Assembly (NCBI RefSeq): GCF_002377945.1
Contig: NZ_DFQV01000020.1
Coordinates: forward strand, 489,081 to 553,080
Source: Psychrobacter sp. UBA3480
GTDB lineage: Bacteria > Pseudomonadota > Gammaproteobacteria > Pseudomonadales > Moraxellaceae
DNA: 64,000 nucleotides
Direction: 5' to 3'
The notes under the pieces are model-generated. The model was not told where the DNA came from and did no database searches. It saw nothing but the letters and a program-made list of their open reading frames with translations. Positions 1,797-49,946 of this stretch are shown here, one piece after another. How positions within the stretch are numbered: the first letter of the stretch is position 1; each line of letters begins with the position of its first letter. The translations under genes and the position numbers were made by a program.

Positions 1797-2264
1797 TTAA
1801 TCTAGGGTGATTTTGGTTCCACTCTTAGTAAAGTTCATCACAAACTGGCTTTTAAAATTGCGCACATTATTTTCGTAAGTCAGTAAGCTGCGAGTGAACT
1901 GATGATAGTCGCTCATGTTTTTTGCATTCACCATCAACATAAAGTCAAAATCACCCGATACTTCATAGCAGCTCATGATTCGTGATTGCGCATCCATCAA
2001 GCGCTCAAACCGATGTTGCATTGAGGTATTAGAGCGCTCCATTTCTATCATTACTACTGCTGTCAGACCATAGCCTACTTTGTCAGGATTGACGATGGCT
2101 ACTTGTTTGGTAATCACGTCACTATCTATTAGCGCTTGTATACGCCGCTGCGCCGTCGCAATGGATACATGCACTCGCTCTGCGACAGTTTTAAGCGGTA
2201 ATGTCGCATCGTCTTGCAGCAAGTTCAAAATAGCTTTATCAATATTATCTAAAGTGTGGCTCAT
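1797..2264 (-). CDS. Lrp/AsnC-family transcriptional regulator
   Basis: A 155-residue protein, the normal length for the family. Residues about 5-60 form the winged helix-turn-helix (LDNIDKAILNLLQDD, then a recognition helix around VSIATAQRRIQAL). Residues about 70-150 form the RAM ligand-binding and oligomerisation domain with the typical CYEVSGDFDFMLMV segment. Members respond to amino acids and often control a divergent exporter. Here a DMT-family exporter starts about 240 bases away on the other strand, which makes it the obvious candidate target, by inference. The ATG at 2264 is preceded by GGATG. Confidence 0.92.
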   Translation of the reverse strand: MSHTLDNIDKAILNLLQDDATLPLKTVAERVHVSIATAQRRIQALIDSDVITKQVAIVNPDKVGYGLTAVVMIEMERSNTSMQHRFERLMDAQSRIMSCYEVSGDFDFMLMVNAKNMSDYHQFTRSLLTYENNVRNFKSQFVMNFTKSGTKITLD

Positions 2265-2505
2265 ATCAGGGCATCCTTAATAGGAGAGTTTTCTATCGAT
2301 TTTTATAAATATTATCACTAAAAATCCTAATATAAGAAAATAATCATTTATATGACACCTATTTGAGATATTTATTCATAAGTACATCTATATAGAGATA
2401 ATATATCAAAGCACCCTAGTAACATAGAGCATACCAATCAGAACTGCTTTAAAAAAGAGCTAGCAATTGGTTTTTTATCATCTATTAATAGCTACGGTGC
2501 TTATC

Positions 2506-3528
2506 ATGTCTATCTCAATGCTCTCCAATGTATTCGCTAATACGCTAGCAACGACTGCTGCACGTTTGCCACTACCTGCGATTTGGACGACAGGTAGCGT
2601 ACAACAACGCACTCTGATATTAGGGGTGTCTTTTGCCATATTGTCCAATGTGCTATTTGGCGTACTCTATGCATATAGCAGTTTTTTGTCGCCATTATCA
2701 GGGACGCAAGTTTTTATCTGGCGTATGCTCGCGATGTGGGCAGCGTTGGTCGGATACTTAATGGTAAGTGGGCGTCTGGGATTGCACATTGATAAGTTAA
2801 AATTGCTCAAAGGCGCTAAGCAGTGGGCTTGGTTGCTATTACCTACACCGATATTCCTTAGCCAGTTTTGGTTGTTTATGTGGGCGCCAGTGAATGGCCA
2901 AGGTGTGCAAACCGCGATGGGATACTTCTTATTCCCATTAATGATGGTGGTGTTTGGTTGTGTCCTCTTTGGCGAAAAACTAAGCCGTTTGCAATGGTTG
3001 GCAGTGGCCTTTGCTGCATTGGGTGTGGGTAGCGAAGTTATCCGTACGCAAAGTGTCTCTTGGGCGACGCTATGGGTATGCGGTACGTATCCTATTTACT
3101 ACATTTTACGCCGACTGCAGGGAATTGGCGCAGTAACTGGTTTATTGGTTGATTTAACGATATTTGCGCCCTTTGCGCTGGCTTACTTATTCTTCTTTGC
3201 CCCAAGCAGTTTGGCATTGGTTAGTGGCTCTGGTTTCTTTATCATGATGCTAGTAGGTTTGGGTGTGCTCAGTGTTTTGGCAATGAAGACCAATATTGAT
3301 GCCAGTCAAATGCTACCAGTCAATGTCTATGGCATGATGAGCTATTTGGAGCCAGCGTTGCTATTTATTTTGGCAGTGACCGTGCTAGGCAATCCATTTG
3401 AGTCAGCGATGATTTATAGCTACGGTTTGATTTGGTTAGGTATTGGGTGTTTGATTGCCCATGGTGTTAGGCAATTACGTCAGGCTAGTAGAAAGACAGC
3501 ATTATCTCTAGAAGAGCAGATGGCATAG
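2506..3528 (+). CDS. EamA/RarD-type DMT-family transporter
   Basis: An inner-membrane protein with about ten hydrophobic helices, of the drug/metabolite transporter superfamily. Segments such as GVLYAYSSFLSPLSGTQVF, MGYFLFPLMMVVFG and LGVGSEV match the RarD branch most closely. RarD-like proteins are presumed exporters of amino acids or small metabolites; the substrate is unknown here. The N-terminus runs about 40 residues beyond typical RarD. The frame can also begin at a TTG at 2467 behind AAAGAG; I prefer the ATG at 2506 but the start is uncertain. A divergent Lrp/AsnC gene suggests amino-acid-responsive control. A bidirectional terminator follows at 3612. Confidence 0.85.
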   Translation: MSISMLSNVFANTLATTAARLPLPAIWTTGSVQQRTLILGVSFAILSNVLFGVLYAYSSFLSPLSGTQVFIWRMLAMWAALVGYLMVSGRLGLHIDKLKLLKGAKQWAWLLLPTPIFLSQFWLFMWAPVNGQGVQTAMGYFLFPLMMVVFGCVLFGEKLSRLQWLAVAFAALGVGSEVIRTQSVSWATLWVCGTYPIYYILRRLQGIGAVTGLLVDLTIFAPFALAYLFFFAPSSLALVSGSGFFIMMLVGLGVLSVLAMKTNIDASQMLPVNVYGMMSYLEPALLFILAVTVLGNPFESAMIYSYGLIWLGIGCLIAHGVRQLRQASRKTALSLEEQMA

Positions 3529-45013: not shown

Positions 45014-45369
45014 AAGCATCTCTATTGTAAGTTAGCGGTATTTTAAAAAGCACTCATACGTTCACAGCGTATGAGTGCTTTTTTGTGCAATCTATATATT
45101 TTTATTCAAAGCCAAATTAAATTTTATAGGCGTTTTATATGATGGAATTGATTGATTATAAACGAGTATATGTTGTTCAAAAGTATATGCATACTTTGCT
45201 ATATATAACTAATCGTAGATAATGACCAAACATAATTATTGCAATCATAAAATTAGACAAGTATTATCTAACGTAACTTTCTGTAAGCAAATATGTATAG
45301 ACATTACTTAACATTGCTAGATTGTCATTCACTAAGATGTAAAACAACGTTAGGTTTCAAGGATAGATT
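45014..45369. other. Intergenic region before the CheX signalling locus
   Basis: 356 bases with the efflux-gene terminator at its left end. A weak promoter candidate for the downstream genes is TTAACA at 45308-45313 with TAAGAT at 45333-45338 (19-base spacer). Otherwise AT-rich with nothing recognised. Confidence 0.4.
45045..45084 (+). terminator. Intrinsic terminator after the MFS gene
   Basis: aaaaagcactcatacg / cgtatgagtgctttttt with a 7-base loop. Confidence 0.95.
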
Positions 45370-46239
45370 ATGATGCAGTTATATCGAGCGTTACCAATTC
45401 TATTGAGTGTTGGCCTATTTGGCTGTGGCAACTCTTCTACTCAAGAAAATGCAAGCGCAACAGTAACGGAAAACACAGATAGCTTTGTGAGCAAGCTGCC
45501 TGCTTCGGCGCCAACCATAAAGGTGGCCACAACAGGTACGATGCCACCGTTCTCGTTTCAAGATGATTATGGGAATATGCAAGGTATTGATATTGATTCA
45601 ATCCGTGCTATCGGTGAAGAACAAGGCTTCAAAGTCGAGTTCTACAAGGAAACTTGGCAGAACATGTTTGACACAGTAGAGTCTGGTGGACGTGATCTAG
45701 CAATCTCAGGTATCTCTTACAAAGATGACCGCGCTGTAAAATATGGCCTTTCTACTCCTTATTTCTTTAATCCATCTGCAGTCATGTACAAAAATGCTGA
45801 CCTAAAAATAAATCGCTTAGATGATTTGCAAGGCATGCATGTTGCGGCAATGGAAGGCTCAAAGCAAGATGATCAGCTCAGAGCGATGGGTAAATATAGC
45901 CAAATGACGACTCGAAGCACAGCTTATCTATTATTTGAAGATTTGATGCAGGACAAGGTCGATGTCATTCTGCATGACTTACCTATTTTACAGTTTACGG
46001 CAAAAAACCATCCAGAGTATGACGTCACTATCGTCTCTTATGAGGGTGAAGACAATCCATCAGCCCAGCAGGTTATTCTGATGGCGAAAGGCAATAATGA
46101 CTTAATTCGTAAAGTGGATGAAGGTATTGCAAAGCTCAAACAAAAAGGAACGTTTAAAGAGATTGAGAATCGTTGGTTGGGCGCAGCAGAGACTGCTGAA
46201 GAAAGTGATTCTGATACTAATACTAAGCAAGTGAACTAA
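45370..46239 (+). CDS. Solute-binding lipoprotein (SBP_bac_3 type)
   Basis: A 289-residue periplasmic binding protein. Its lipoprotein signal ends at Cys19 (VGLFGC). Residues about 48-275 form the type II solute-binding fold of the family that binds polar amino acids: IKVATTGTMPPFSFQDDYGNMQGIDIDSI opens it (positions about 50-78) and FKEIENRWLG closes it. No ABC permease or ATPase is encoded nearby. The stop is only 12 bases before the membrane kinase gene, so the protein may serve as a ligand sensor for that kinase rather than for transport (inference). AAGGA precedes the ATG. Confidence 0.9.
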   Translation: MMQLYRALPILLSVGLFGCGNSSTQENASATVTENTDSFVSKLPASAPTIKVATTGTMPPFSFQDDYGNMQGIDIDSIRAIGEEQGFKVEFYKETWQNMFDTVESGGRDLAISGISYKDDRAVKYGLSTPYFFNPSAVMYKNADLKINRLDDLQGMHVAAMEGSKQDDQLRAMGKYSQMTTRSTAYLLFEDLMQDKVDVILHDLPILQFTAKNHPEYDVTIVSYEGEDNPSAQQVILMAKGNNDLIRKVDEGIAKLKQKGTFKEIENRWLGAAETAEESDSDTNTKQVN

Positions 46240-46251
46240 GGAATTCTGAAG

Positions 46252-48432
46252 ATGGCAACCGTACCTAATGTCGACAATAAGCGCTATCAAGGTCTGATTA
46301 TTTCAATTGCACTATTTTTATCTCTAATCGGTGCTTTGCTAGCGTTCACGTTTTATACCTCAAACTTATTAGAAAGAAACACCGCTTTAATTGACCAAAC
46401 CAACCAAGTGGCAAACAGTGCACAGGCGGTAATTAAAGATCTTTTCGACTTGGACAGCAGTTATGGTGAGGATACTAAGTCTCCACACATACAACGAGCA
46501 TTAAGTCGTTTAGAGCAAAACACAACGTTGATTACCAACTCTATTGCAGCGATTGAGCAAGGTGGCACGATCACAGATGAAGAAGGTAATAGTTACGATT
46601 TACCAAAAATTGATAGCAACGCACAAACCAACATCGCCGCTGCCAATGAGCAATGGAAAGCGCTAGAGCCCAAAATTCAAGCATACTTAAAAGATGCTGA
46701 TAACGTTATGGTGCCTTCTGCTGATGAATTGACGCAGGCCGTTGAGCAGGCTAAAACATCAAGTTTGTTTATTAACGATTCTTTAGATAGTCTGACAAAA
46801 GATGTATTTAATAGTGCAGAACGTCAAGCAACTACCATTCGTCTTATTCAGGTACTTGGTGTTGCCGCTATCTTTACCTACTTCCTAATCTTCGTATTCT
46901 TCTTTGTACGTCGTCTACGTGAGACGGATGCTGAAGCACTTGCCGCTCGCCAAGAAACGCAAGAAATTATGGAAACAGTAAACACGGGTCTTTTCCTACT
47001 TGATAAGGACTTGAATATTGGTCAACAGCATTCTCGAGCGTTGAACAATATCATCGGCTCTGATAGCTTAGCAGGGGAAAACTTTACCAATGTCTTGCGC
47101 GGTCGTATTTCTGATAAAGACCTCAAGACCACACAGCAATTCATTGAGCAGCTCTATAACCCTCGCGTTAAAGAAAAGCTGGTAGATTCACTTAATCCAT
47201 TAAATAAAGTCATGCTGCATAATTTGTCTGAAGACAAAAATCTTGATAACCGCTTCTTAGATTTTAAATTCTCACGTGTTTATGACAATAAAGACATTGC
47301 CCGTATCTTGGTCAACGTGAATGATGTATCAGATGCAGTCTACTTAGAACAGCGCCTAGAAAAAGAGCGTTCGCAAAACGATATGCAGATTGAGATGTTA
47401 ACGACTATCTTGAATGTAAATCCAAAGATTATTAATGAGTTTATTGGTAATACCCAAGCGCATATCGAGAAGATGAATAACATCTTGAAAAATCCTGGTA
47501 GCTCACAATATGAGCTTGAAGGTAAATTGAAAGCTATTTATCGTGAAATGCACAGCTTAAAAGGTGAAGCATCAGCACTAAAACTACACAGCTTTACGAA
47601 GATTGCTTCTGATGCTGAAGACAAGTTGCATGCATTGCAAAACCAAGGTCAGTTGTCTGGTAATGACTTCTTACCATTGGCAGTACATTTGGATGACTTA
47701 CTCAGCTTATCGAACACGATTGCGACGTTGGGTGAGCGTATCAACCGCTCAGCACCGACAGCAGCTAAGTCGTCAACCGTACAAGCACCAGTCGCTACTC
47801 AAAATCCAGTAGCAGACCATACAGCTGGCAATGCTGACTTCGATGGTGGGCTAGATATCGACTTAGACAATGAAGCAGATGACGATTTATTGTCTTTTTA
47901 TAATGAATTTACAAAAGAAATTGCTGCAAGACAGGGCAAGCAAGTACAGCTAAAAAGTACGACGCTAACCCAAACCAGCATTCCGGCAAATCTGGCAAAG
48001 CCAATCAAAGAAATCAGTATTCAGTTGCTGCGTAATGCGGTAGTCCATGGTATCGAGTCGCCAAGTGTGCGTCATGCTACTGGCAAAACTGACGTTGGGA
48101 CCATTGATTTGGAAGTGCAAGACAACGGTTCAAACTTTATGCTGGTTGTTCAAGACGACGGACAAGGTATCAACTACGACAGCATCCGTAATAAACTGAT
48201 TCAAGAAGGTCGTTTCAGTACGGAAGAGGCAACTCAGCTTAGCAAAGGTGACTTGCTCAAACAGCTGTTCTCTTCTGGATTCTCTACCAAAGAGCACTCA
48301 GATGAAGATGGTGGCCGCGGTGTTGGACTTGATATCATTAAAGCAAAAGTAAAAGAGTATGATGGCAAGCTTAACGTAAATAGCGATCTGGGTCAGATGA
48401 CACGGTTTGTCATTACTTTACCTAAAGCTTAA
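46252..48432 (+). CDS. Membrane-bound CheA-like histidine kinase (PAS-HPt-HATPase)
   Basis: A 726-residue inner-membrane kinase. Membrane helices lie at about 15-34 and 198-219, with a helical periplasmic domain of about 165 residues between them that resembles the four-helix sensor bundles of chemoreceptors. A PAS-like domain (about 237-365, ETVNTGLFLLDKDLNIG) follows, then a coiled coil, an HPt domain with His434 in MHSLKGEA, a linker, and a CheA-type HATPase: N box RNAVVHGIE (Asn595, His599), VQDDGQGI and GGRGVGLD near 687. It ends right after the HATPase, so the CheW-like domain of true CheA is missing. The likely phosphate acceptor is the CheY-like protein encoded next. Confidence 0.88.
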   Translation: MATVPNVDNKRYQGLIISIALFLSLIGALLAFTFYTSNLLERNTALIDQTNQVANSAQAVIKDLFDLDSSYGEDTKSPHIQRALSRLEQNTTLITNSIAAIEQGGTITDEEGNSYDLPKIDSNAQTNIAAANEQWKALEPKIQAYLKDADNVMVPSADELTQAVEQAKTSSLFINDSLDSLTKDVFNSAERQATTIRLIQVLGVAAIFTYFLIFVFFFVRRLRETDAEALAARQETQEIMETVNTGLFLLDKDLNIGQQHSRALNNIIGSDSLAGENFTNVLRGRISDKDLKTTQQFIEQLYNPRVKEKLVDSLNPLNKVMLHNLSEDKNLDNRFLDFKFSRVYDNKDIARILVNVNDVSDAVYLEQRLEKERSQNDMQIEMLTTILNVNPKIINEFIGNTQAHIEKMNNILKNPGSSQYELEGKLKAIYREMHSLKGEASALKLHSFTKIASDAEDKLHALQNQGQLSGNDFLPLAVHLDDLLSLSNTIATLGERINRSAPTAAKSSTVQAPVATQNPVADHTAGNADFDGGLDIDLDNEADDDLLSFYNEFTKEIAARQGKQVQLKSTTLTQTSIPANLAKPIKEISIQLLRNAVVHGIESPSVRHATGKTDVGTIDLEVQDNGSNFMLVVQDDGQGINYDSIRNKLIQEGRFSTEEATQLSKGDLLKQLFSSGFSTKEHSDEDGGRGVGLDIIKAKVKEYDGKLNVNSDLGQMTRFVITLPKA

Positions 48433-48493
48433 TCAAAATAGTAATTATATTGTCAGGGACGACAAGCACTTCATTAAAGGTAGTAGATAAGTT

Positions 48494-48856
48494 ATGCATA
48501 AGTTAATGATTGTTGATGATTCAAATATTATTAGAAACCGTATTCAGCGCGCATACGATTCAGGAAAGTTCATGTTGGTTGCGACAGCGACTAGCGGTGT
48601 TCAAGCCATCGAAAAGTTCAATGTCCATCGTCCTGATGTGATCACTATGGATCTAACCATGCCACAAATGGATGGGCTAGAATGTATTGAAAAAATCATC
48701 GCGATTGATCCTGAAGTACGCATTTTAGTGGTATCAGCGTTATCGGACAAAGCCACCGGTATCGAAGCACTGTCGCTAGGTGCTAGCGGATTTTTGTGCA
48801 AGCCTTTTTCAGAAGAGGAGCTTGTAGAGTCTTTGTATGAGCTGATGCAAGACTAA
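48494..48856 (+). CDS. CheY-like single-domain response regulator
   Basis: A 120-residue receiver domain with no output domain. The acidic pocket is Asp8/Asp9, the phospho-acceptor is Asp53 in TMDLTMPQMDG, the conserved Ser/Thr is in VVSAL and the Lys in FLCKPFS. It would accept phosphate from the HPt His of the kinase encoded 61 bases upstream and either bind a partner or be dephosphorylated by the CheX-like proteins encoded next. It lacks a DNA-binding or enzymatic domain, so the output partner is not visible here. Confidence 0.93.
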   Translation: MHKLMIVDDSNIIRNRIQRAYDSGKFMLVATATSGVQAIEKFNVHRPDVITMDLTMPQMDGLECIEKIIAIDPEVRILVVSALSDKATGIEALSLGASGFLCKPFSEEELVESLYELMQD

Positions 48857-48886
48857 TACCATTCATCGACCAAAGCAGATGTCATT

Positions 48887-49336
48887 ATGAAAGAGCAAAA
48901 GCTACAGATTTTTTTAAGTATTATTAGTAATTATTTTGACCAGTTTGGGGGAGAAGAGCTTATTGCCGATACTCCTTACTTACTAGAAAACAAACAGCCA
49001 AAAGTCCACGATTATACGGGCGTGATTGGTATATCTGGTGGCCAAAAAGGCGTGGTATATTTTTCGGCGACGCGTGAATTGCTGTCTTCAATATTAGACA
49101 GCATGGGCGAAACCGATAAAAGTGAAGAGAACTATGTAGATCTGGCTGGGGAAGTGGCTAATACCATCGCAGGCAATGCACGTAAAGAGTTTGGCTCAGA
49201 GTTTCATATCTCTGTACCATTTGTGTTCAAAGGTGCGCCACAAAGTATTGTGTTGCCGAACGATGAGCGTTCTTTTATCATCCCCATCACTTGGCATTCT
49301 CAAGTAGGCGAGATTGTGGTTTGTTTGCAAGATTAA
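48887..49336 (+). CDS. CheX-like phosphatase, first copy
   Basis: A 149-residue protein with the CheX/CheC-family fold. The phosphatase helix reads LAGEVANTIAGNAR, with the key Glu89 and Asn92 in the E-x2-N pattern used by CheX to dephosphorylate CheY-P. It has one such motif, as in CheX, not two as in CheC. The gene starts 30 bases after the receiver gene and is followed 35 bases later by a second copy, all in one direction. Confidence 0.88.
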   Translation: MKEQKLQIFLSIISNYFDQFGGEELIADTPYLLENKQPKVHDYTGVIGISGGQKGVVYFSATRELLSSILDSMGETDKSEENYVDLAGEVANTIAGNARKEFGSEFHISVPFVFKGAPQSIVLPNDERSFIIPITWHSQVGEIVVCLQD

Positions 49337-49371
49337 TGCTGCCACGTAATACAGATGGATATTAATATATT

Positions 49372-49821
49372 ATGGTTAAAGTAGAAAAATTGGGTGTATT
49401 TCTAAGCTCGATCAATGCGTTTTTTGCGCAAATCGATGGCTCGGAAGTGTCAATTGATACCCCTTACTTGAACAACAACAAAAGTGCGATTGGCTTTGAT
49501 TATAGCGGTGTCATTAAGATATCAGGGCCTTTAGAGGGCTGCGTCTATGTCAGTGCACCAAGCGTGATGTTGCGAGAAGTCATCAAAGTGATGGGCGAGC
49601 CTGACTCTTCAATCACCATGATGAAAGATTTGTTGGGTGAAATGGCCAATACAATCTCAGGTAACGCTCGGACAGAATTTGGTTCAGAGTTTATTATCTC
49701 TCCGCCGCACATTGTAGAGAGTGCGCCAAGCGTGTCTTATTTGCCTAAAGATCGTCAAAGTTACATCACACCATTTACGTGGCGTGGTTACAAGGCGGTC
49801 ATTGGTATTTGCATTGCATAA
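49372..49821 (+). CDS. CheX-like phosphatase, second copy
   Basis: Also 149 residues and clearly paralogous to the preceding gene. It shares DTPYL near residue 27, DYSGVI(K)ISG near residue 45 and the active helix LLGEMANTISGNARTEFGSEF, with Glu90 and Asn93. The rest has diverged strongly, which points to an old duplication with possible division of labour, for example one phosphatase and one scaffold or heterodimer partner. A terminator follows at 49915. Confidence 0.88.
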   Translation: MVKVEKLGVFLSSINAFFAQIDGSEVSIDTPYLNNNKSAIGFDYSGVIKISGPLEGCVYVSAPSVMLREVIKVMGEPDSSITMMKDLLGEMANTISGNARTEFGSEFIISPPHIVESAPSVSYLPKDRQSYITPFTWRGYKAVIGICIA

Positions 49822-49914
49822 GCTATAGTCAATCACTCTGTAAACGAGTGATAACTATAAAAGAGTGACGGCAGTAACCCTGCTTGAAAAATAGCGATTA
49901 AAAAGACAATCATG

Positions 49915-49946
49915 AAAAAAGCGATGCAAATGTGTCGCTTTTTTTT
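49915..49946 (+). terminator. Intrinsic terminator after the CheX genes
   Basis: aaaaaagcga / tcgctttttt with an inner part extendable by G-T pairs and a run of eight T. Confidence 0.85.

Follow-up and report, generated by a model that had tools for sequence, protein, structure and literature searches.

Several histidine kinases are coupled to a solute-binding protein (SBP), as in the TorT-TorS and LuxP-LuxQ pairs, and in the agr locus a variable kinase input half and specificity genes accompany a conserved cytoplasmic half. In XylFII-LytS (PDB 5xsj), the SBP gene stands beside that of a kinase with a helical-bundle ectodomain. The GlnH-GlnX-PknG system of Corynebacterium joins an SBP_bac_3 lipoprotein that binds acidic amino acids to a four-helix-bundle membrane protein; the action of GlnH on GlnX is proposed, not shown, and GlnX has two bundles and passes its signal to a separate kinase, PknG (PMC9769921). 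The ComQXPA pherotype locus has a variable kinase input half with neighbouring specificity genes and a conserved cytoplasmic half, ComP reading a peptide made by its own locus (PMC4008528). CheA, in turn, is a kinase without a sensor domain that relies on dedicated receptors, and a survey places the P1, P3, P4 and P5 domains in all CheA proteins (PMC10782961). Here we describe a five-gene module with likenesses to each of these systems, found in a 64,000-nucleotide stretch of Psychrobacter sp. UBA3480 (contig NZ_DFQV01000020.1), hereafter the window, whose positions serve as coordinates.

The module spans positions 45370-49821, where an open reading frame (ORF) check found five genes, all on the plus strand and separated in order by 12, 61, 30 and 35 bp. 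They encode an SBP_bac_3 lipoprotein (45370..46239), a membrane kinase with a histidine phosphotransfer (HPt) domain and a CheA-P4-type ATPase (46252..48432), a single-domain receiver (48494..48856) and two CheX proteins, CheX1 (48887..49336) and CheX2 (49372..49821), which are identical at 71 of 149 residues. These coordinates and the Pfam domains agree with a preceding sequence-only reading, which had listed five same-strand genes of these kinds. We hold it probable, at roughly 64%, that the module works as a self-contained phosphorylation switch whose two-protein sensor can be exchanged. Mechanistically, the lipoprotein would bind an amino-acid-like ligand and dock on the kinase's periplasmic four-helix bundle; docking would alter a membrane helix-PAS-like relay and hence the phosphorylation of the HPt residue His434 by the CheA-type ATPase. 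Judging from conserved residues and family knowledge, His434 would hand the phosphate to Asp53 of the receiver, from which CheX1 and CheX2 would remove it. Since the receiver has no output domain, its phosphorylated form would act by binding some other protein.

The kinase is not a CheA, though it is built from CheA parts. Pfam identified HATPase_c (1.5e-15) and Hpt (4e-07) and, up to E 1, no CheW, P2 or H-kinase_dim match; H-kinase_dim was also unmatched in ten relatives (up to E 0.1). The best NCBIfam matches are CheA models, with scores far under the curated cut-offs, and CheA P4 chains head the PDB sequence matches, the ATPase being closest to CheA P4. An AlphaFold2 model (33 rows; mean predicted local distance difference test (pLDDT) 80.4, predicted template modelling score (pTM) 0.47) predicts a long first membrane helix, a periplasmic four-helix bundle at about residues 31-200, a second membrane helix, an alpha/beta domain read as PAS-like (243-358), the HPt domain (391-500), a disordered linker (502-543) and P4 (544-724); both membrane helices were read from the sequence and the model without a topology tool. 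The kinase thus has a P1/HPt domain with a phosphorylatable histidine and a CheA-type P4 ATPase. A P3 dimerisation domain was not found, the region before P4 being predicted as disordered, nor was a P5/CheW-like domain, the modelled chain ending two residues past the last P4 strand. As P2 was not found either, and all CheA proteins have P1, P3, P4 and P5, the kinase falls outside that family. The sequence-only reading had given it PAS, HPt and CheA-type HATPase domains and no CheW; all of this stands apart from the PAS domain, which has no Pfam match in the window kinase and is assigned as PAS-like from the predicted fold of 243-358 and a single PAS_8 match, below threshold, in the relative L053, the full-length fold search having been filled by ATPase matches without covering this part separately. 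The ectodomain is also predicted as a helical bundle when modelled (mean pLDDT 78.5, pTM 0.61), with the LytS domain of 5xsj among the top structural matches of the model and no TorS entry among the matches listed.

The residues of the proposed phosphate route are invariant in the aligned Psychrobacter rows: His434, Lys437 and Gly438 of the kinase in 61/61, Asp53 of the receiver in 60/60, Glu89/Asn92 of CheX1 in 59/59 and Glu90/Asn93 of CheX2 in 62/62 (for CheX, rows longer than 130 aa were used). The receiver (Response_reg, 1.7e-28) has CheY proteins as its nearest solved relatives, first among them 1tmy, which we take to be Thermotoga CheY. Both CheX proteins (6e-21 and 5.6e-19) pass the PF13690 cut-off and carry an ExxN motif, presumably the CheX signature, and are likely phosphatases of the receiver. 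In V. cholerae, a secondary mutation that arose in one motility suppressor concerns VC0377, a CheX-family protein (PMC8789113). As for the SBP (SBP_bac_3, 9.9e-34), the lipobox residue Cys19 together with Arg121 and Asp203 is conserved in all 49 aligned Psychrobacter rows, and its nearest solved relatives carry names such as glutamine permease or binding protein and amino-acid-binding protein. Arg121 and Asp203 occupy positions at which amino-acid SBPs, we assume, bind a ligand by its carboxylate and amino group. The module accordingly has an amino-acid-family SBP where ComP reads a peptide from its own locus. With the described SBP-coupled kinases it shares the adjacent SBP gene, seen in the window, and the helical-bundle ectodomain of the predicted model; it differs from them in combining an SBP_bac_3 lipoprotein, an HPt-P4 kinase, a single receiver and CheX. 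CheA-type P1 and P4 domains, a CheY-like receiver and CheX proteins with ExxN are shared with the CheA-CheY-CheX core, whose kinase, unlike that of the module, lacks a membrane sensor of its own.

The comparison of related loci shows that the ligand-binding part of the SBP and the kinase ectodomain have been replaced together within Psychrobacter, and that PAS-HPt, receiver and CheX have stayed. CheX is present in 84 of 105 Psychrobacter genomes, from which 62 were hand-chosen (60 fetched, the window, and one genome entered as L052); after exclusion of L203 (a contig end without kinase) and of L156 and L161 (short kinases), 59 loci remained. According to phmmer scores, some of them have near-identical receiver, CheX and flanks, yet very different SBPs and kinase N-termini. 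Clustering of the N-terminal 205 kinase residues at 55% identity, with cut-offs chosen with the data in view, led to ectodomain types A (44 loci), B (5), C (8), D (1) and E (1), the clusters themselves being A with 44, B with 5, L186 and L192 together, and type C split into groups of 6, 1 and 1; when the cut was lowered to 45%, all eight C rows joined in one cluster and the remaining rows in another. Types A, B and D each have their own SBP class, C has no SBP and E none beside the kinase. Likewise, the SBP ligand-binding parts clustered at 55% into 43 sequences, all with type A kinases, the same five B loci, and L186; the type A locus L206 has its SBP split in two ORFs and was left untyped (the SBP of L161, where the kinase ORF is also short, is split as well). 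Overall, an SBP longer than 250 aa adjoins the kinase in 49/59 loci, one locus has a split SBP and nine have none. We therefore rejected the SBP as a strict part of the system, type C (8/59 loci) being without it; no convincing SBP remnant was seen upstream of type C kinases (best E 0.003, in L157).

The exchanged segments were followed in 11 hand-picked locus pairs. The clearest, L205 and L185, are 95% identical in DNA outside and 54% inside a block that runs from about SBP codon 42 to about kinase codon 191, a sensor cassette that maps by codon number to 45493..46824 (+) of the window; by this comparison, the ligand-binding part of the SBP would start at about codon 42-48. Wider differing segments that hold both SBP and ectodomain were found in L158/L160, L159/L160 and L196/L198, and segments extending far upstream of the SBP in L180/L206 and L166/L193. 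In window/L185, L052/L166 and L171/L167, most of the difference lies in the SBP, or in the SBP and the DNA upstream, and L183/L184 and L153/L200 gave no such segment in the scan. SBP alleles, as the comparison also shows, have been exchanged alone inside one ectodomain class. Within type A, SBP subtypes A1 and A2 (16 versus 26 rows, L052 excluded) are separated by 15 near-fixed residues at an 85% cut, 11 of them within 153-214 and four within 54-75, which suggests different ligands.

On a tree built by a quick method from major facilitator superfamily (MFS), receiver, CheX1, CheX2 and rpsB DNA (57 rows; L186 and L192, without flanks, were left out), the sensor types need 11 changes, against a mean of 12.4 for shuffled labels, with as few in 25/200 shuffles; the starred branches force at least four changes for type B and four for type C. 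Sensor type is thus hardly tied to descent. The window clade, which flank and output genes support, was rejected by approximately unbiased tests on the SBP tree (p 0.00025) and on the ectodomain tree (p 5.5e-06) and was not rejected with PAS-HPt (p 0.336); the control trio of L164, L177 and L187 stays grouped in the SBP as well as the ectodomain tree. Median identities, excluding L186 and L192, are 0.95 for rpsB, 0.94 for the receiver, 0.92 for the MFS protein, 0.88 for HPt, 0.84 for the PAS-like domain, 0.83 for CheX1 and CheX2, 0.74 for the ectodomain, 0.68 for P4, 0.67 for the SBP and 0.27 for the linker. The ATPase domain is therefore less conserved in the genus than the PAS-like and HPt domains. 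As the SBP varies and is exchanged with the ectodomain, the two likely form the sensor jointly, the SBP being the ligand-binding partner.

The module is gained and lost as a block. We searched with the kinase 23 Psychrobacter genomes in which the set is missing or reduced: 20 without CheX, G129 without kinase, G469 with one weak CheX match and G535 with one CheX at a contig edge (CheX without kinase, perhaps from a broken draft). A kinase match at E 1e-20 was found in 19, each confined to the ATPase part; in 18 a CheA-type ATPase match lies in an ORF 1545-2509 aa long, and the remainder of the module kinase is unmatched in all 23. rpsB turned up in 22 genomes, and in 14 of these the surrounding region was read: ten have the MFS gene followed by rpsB with no module gene between, three a different neighbourhood, and one (L240) a CheX2 piece. 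The ten empty regions and the CheX2 remnant are the reason for treating the genes as one block, which was lost in G469, where the lone 95-aa piece between MFS and rpsB (L240:5359-5646) is the scar of the loss. Two genomes, G538 and G539, have an additional kinase-receiver pair, a paralogue of the first, next to which no CheX was called (L258, L259), as well as SBP relatives away from the module (L253-L255).

Outside Psychrobacter, a kinase-receiver-CheX core recurs with other inputs. Among 194 genomes of the order searched with the kinase, the match extends past the ATPase in at least nine, two of them Psychrobacter, at E values no higher than 1.6e-41; in G058 and G021 it is weaker and starts near residue 226. 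Eight non-genus loci were fetched by the kinase, and six have kinase, receiver and CheX in a row (L053, L054, L055, L057, L058 and L059, whose kinase ORF is split); L007 is cut by a contig edge and L056 has kinase and receiver only. Two loci of another genus of the family, fetched by CheX, gave a distant likeness (L061; 51, 61 and 17 bits) and no called CheX (L060). Among further named loci (L067-L080), the three genes are consecutive in Marinagarivorans, Methylotenera, Caenimonas and a proteobacterial metagenome-assembled genome (MAG; L071). In a Neisseriaceae MAG (L068), the order is SBP, kinase and receiver, and CheX lies some 1.4 kb ahead of the SBP; in Moraxella oblonga, a binding-protein gene precedes kinase and receiver and no CheX was called; and a spirochaete has the order receiver-CheX-kinase. 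L072 (kinase, CheX), L074, L075, L076 and L079 are incomplete or of unsettled content, a greedy ORF caller having hidden L074, L076 and the receiver of L072. PilJ passes the Pfam cut-off in five of the eight kinases scanned from outside Psychrobacter (L053, L054, L069, L072, L073), and one has dCache (L058); a binding-protein gene lies upstream of two, SBP_bac_3 in L068 and Peripla_BP_4 in L070.

A class-wide search returned 29 CheX loci besides that of the window. A receiver and part of such a kinase adjoin all seven that score at least 130 bits with our own profile; 16 score 26-53 bits and have no such kinase or receiver beside them, some lying on short contigs, and in six no CheX ORF was called, presumably an ORF-caller effect. 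The 16 (within L023-L051) constitute another group of CheX proteins in the Gammaproteobacteria. Paired CheX genes also occur outside Psychrobacter, as two adjacent copies follow receiver and kinase in another family (L046:950-1902). In L032, a receiver-Ser/Thr protein kinase gene (1829-3073) directly follows kinase-receiver-CheX, a possible output partner in that genome; the 17 neighbour proteins scanned as a clue to output, this one included, had no common theme, and plasmids gave no kinase match at E 1e-60. The five-gene order, whose conservation the sequence-only reading had proposed to check, is therefore the usual form in Psychrobacter and was rejected as the general one, most complete loci outside the genus having one CheX and no SBP. 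Its idea of a self-contained receptor-kinase, regulator and phosphatase switch gains from the anchored kinase, receiver and CheX standing side by side in other genera and going missing as a block. The periplasmic domain of the kinase, which it had taken as the sensor, is probably not so alone, since the SBP varies and swaps together with it.

It could be argued that the SBP is unrelated to the kinase and that adjacency and joint exchange reflect a recombination hot spot or hitch-hiking. Neighbouring SBP and kinase genes do not always interact, according to one report (PMC11113362); within type A, the SBP subtype is uncoupled from ectodomain identity (0.814 versus 0.810), L192 has no SBP beside its kinase, and, also weighing against an SBP-coupled ectodomain, designed bundles tie with the LytS match. 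However, in the 59 loci each of the SBP classes A, B and D was seen solely with its own type of ectodomain and type C always without an SBP, a matching that holds although segments ending between the two genes exist. Nor is there an ABC-type transporter gene in the module or in the two scanned genes preceding it. We thus regard an unrelated SBP as unlikely; the matched classes and joint exchange are indirect signs that SBP binding to the ectodomain may control the kinase. Far less probable is fast mutation or selection in place. The variable linker and ATPase would fit it, but several pairs have sharp segment ends, the trees conflict, and in 11 pairs the SBPs are 94-96% identical with PAS-HPt at 89-90% and the ATPase at 64-74%.

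Another explanation makes the module an accessory of a Pil-Chp-like chemosensory system of the type IV pilus, to whose CheY-like proteins it would supply phosphate or from which it would withdraw it. The sequence-only reading described the set as without array components, which is right for the operon, where neither CheW nor a receptor is encoded; the genome of the window has two CheW-domain places and one methyl-accepting chemotaxis protein (MCP), all on contig C15. These lie in one stretch (70737-80214) that resembles a pilus-type chemosensory cluster, one CheW being in a 2290-aa ORF. This shared stretch and the CheY-like nature of the module receiver speak for such a link. Against it, without P5 the kinase has no known route into an array, and the long ORF with a CheA-type ATPase is kept in 18 of the 23 genomes with missing or reduced CheX or kinase, none of which matches the rest of the module kinase, so the long protein does not need the module (among module-bearing genomes, its presence was covered in that of the window). 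We consider a pilus accessory doubtful, and prefer the self-contained switch.

The module is flanked by an MFS gene on one side and by genes read by eye as rpsB and tsf on the other. Between the MFS gene and the module, a terminator-like 16-bp perfect inverted repeat with a T-run was read from the sequence at 45045..45083, with no strand assigned; it is absent from the hairpin scan list. Downstream of the last gene, the scan gave a terminator-like hairpin at 49914..49945 (+), where the sequence-only reading had the module end at one terminator. The hairpin is there, and the scan count is near the shuffle level (five such sites versus a mean of 3.8), so this site is favoured solely by its long stem and T-run.

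The sequence-only reading knew of no named system so arranged, and among the open-licence papers listed in our search none treats the module or such an exchange of sensors, although print elsewhere could differ. More tentatively, and at somewhat less than even odds, the module may be a plug-in platform: a fixed HPt-receiver-CheX circuit onto which SBP and ectodomain cassettes would be recombined, their diversity being kept, as in pherotypes, by selection on the sensed cue. With CheA parts in a stand-alone receptor kinase that has likely CheX brakes, P1-P4 chemistry and its reset become open to array-free study. The swapped cassettes are natural matched and mismatched SBP-kinase pairs, which makes communication between the two proteins directly testable, and the cassette ends show natural cut-and-join points of a sensor kinase.

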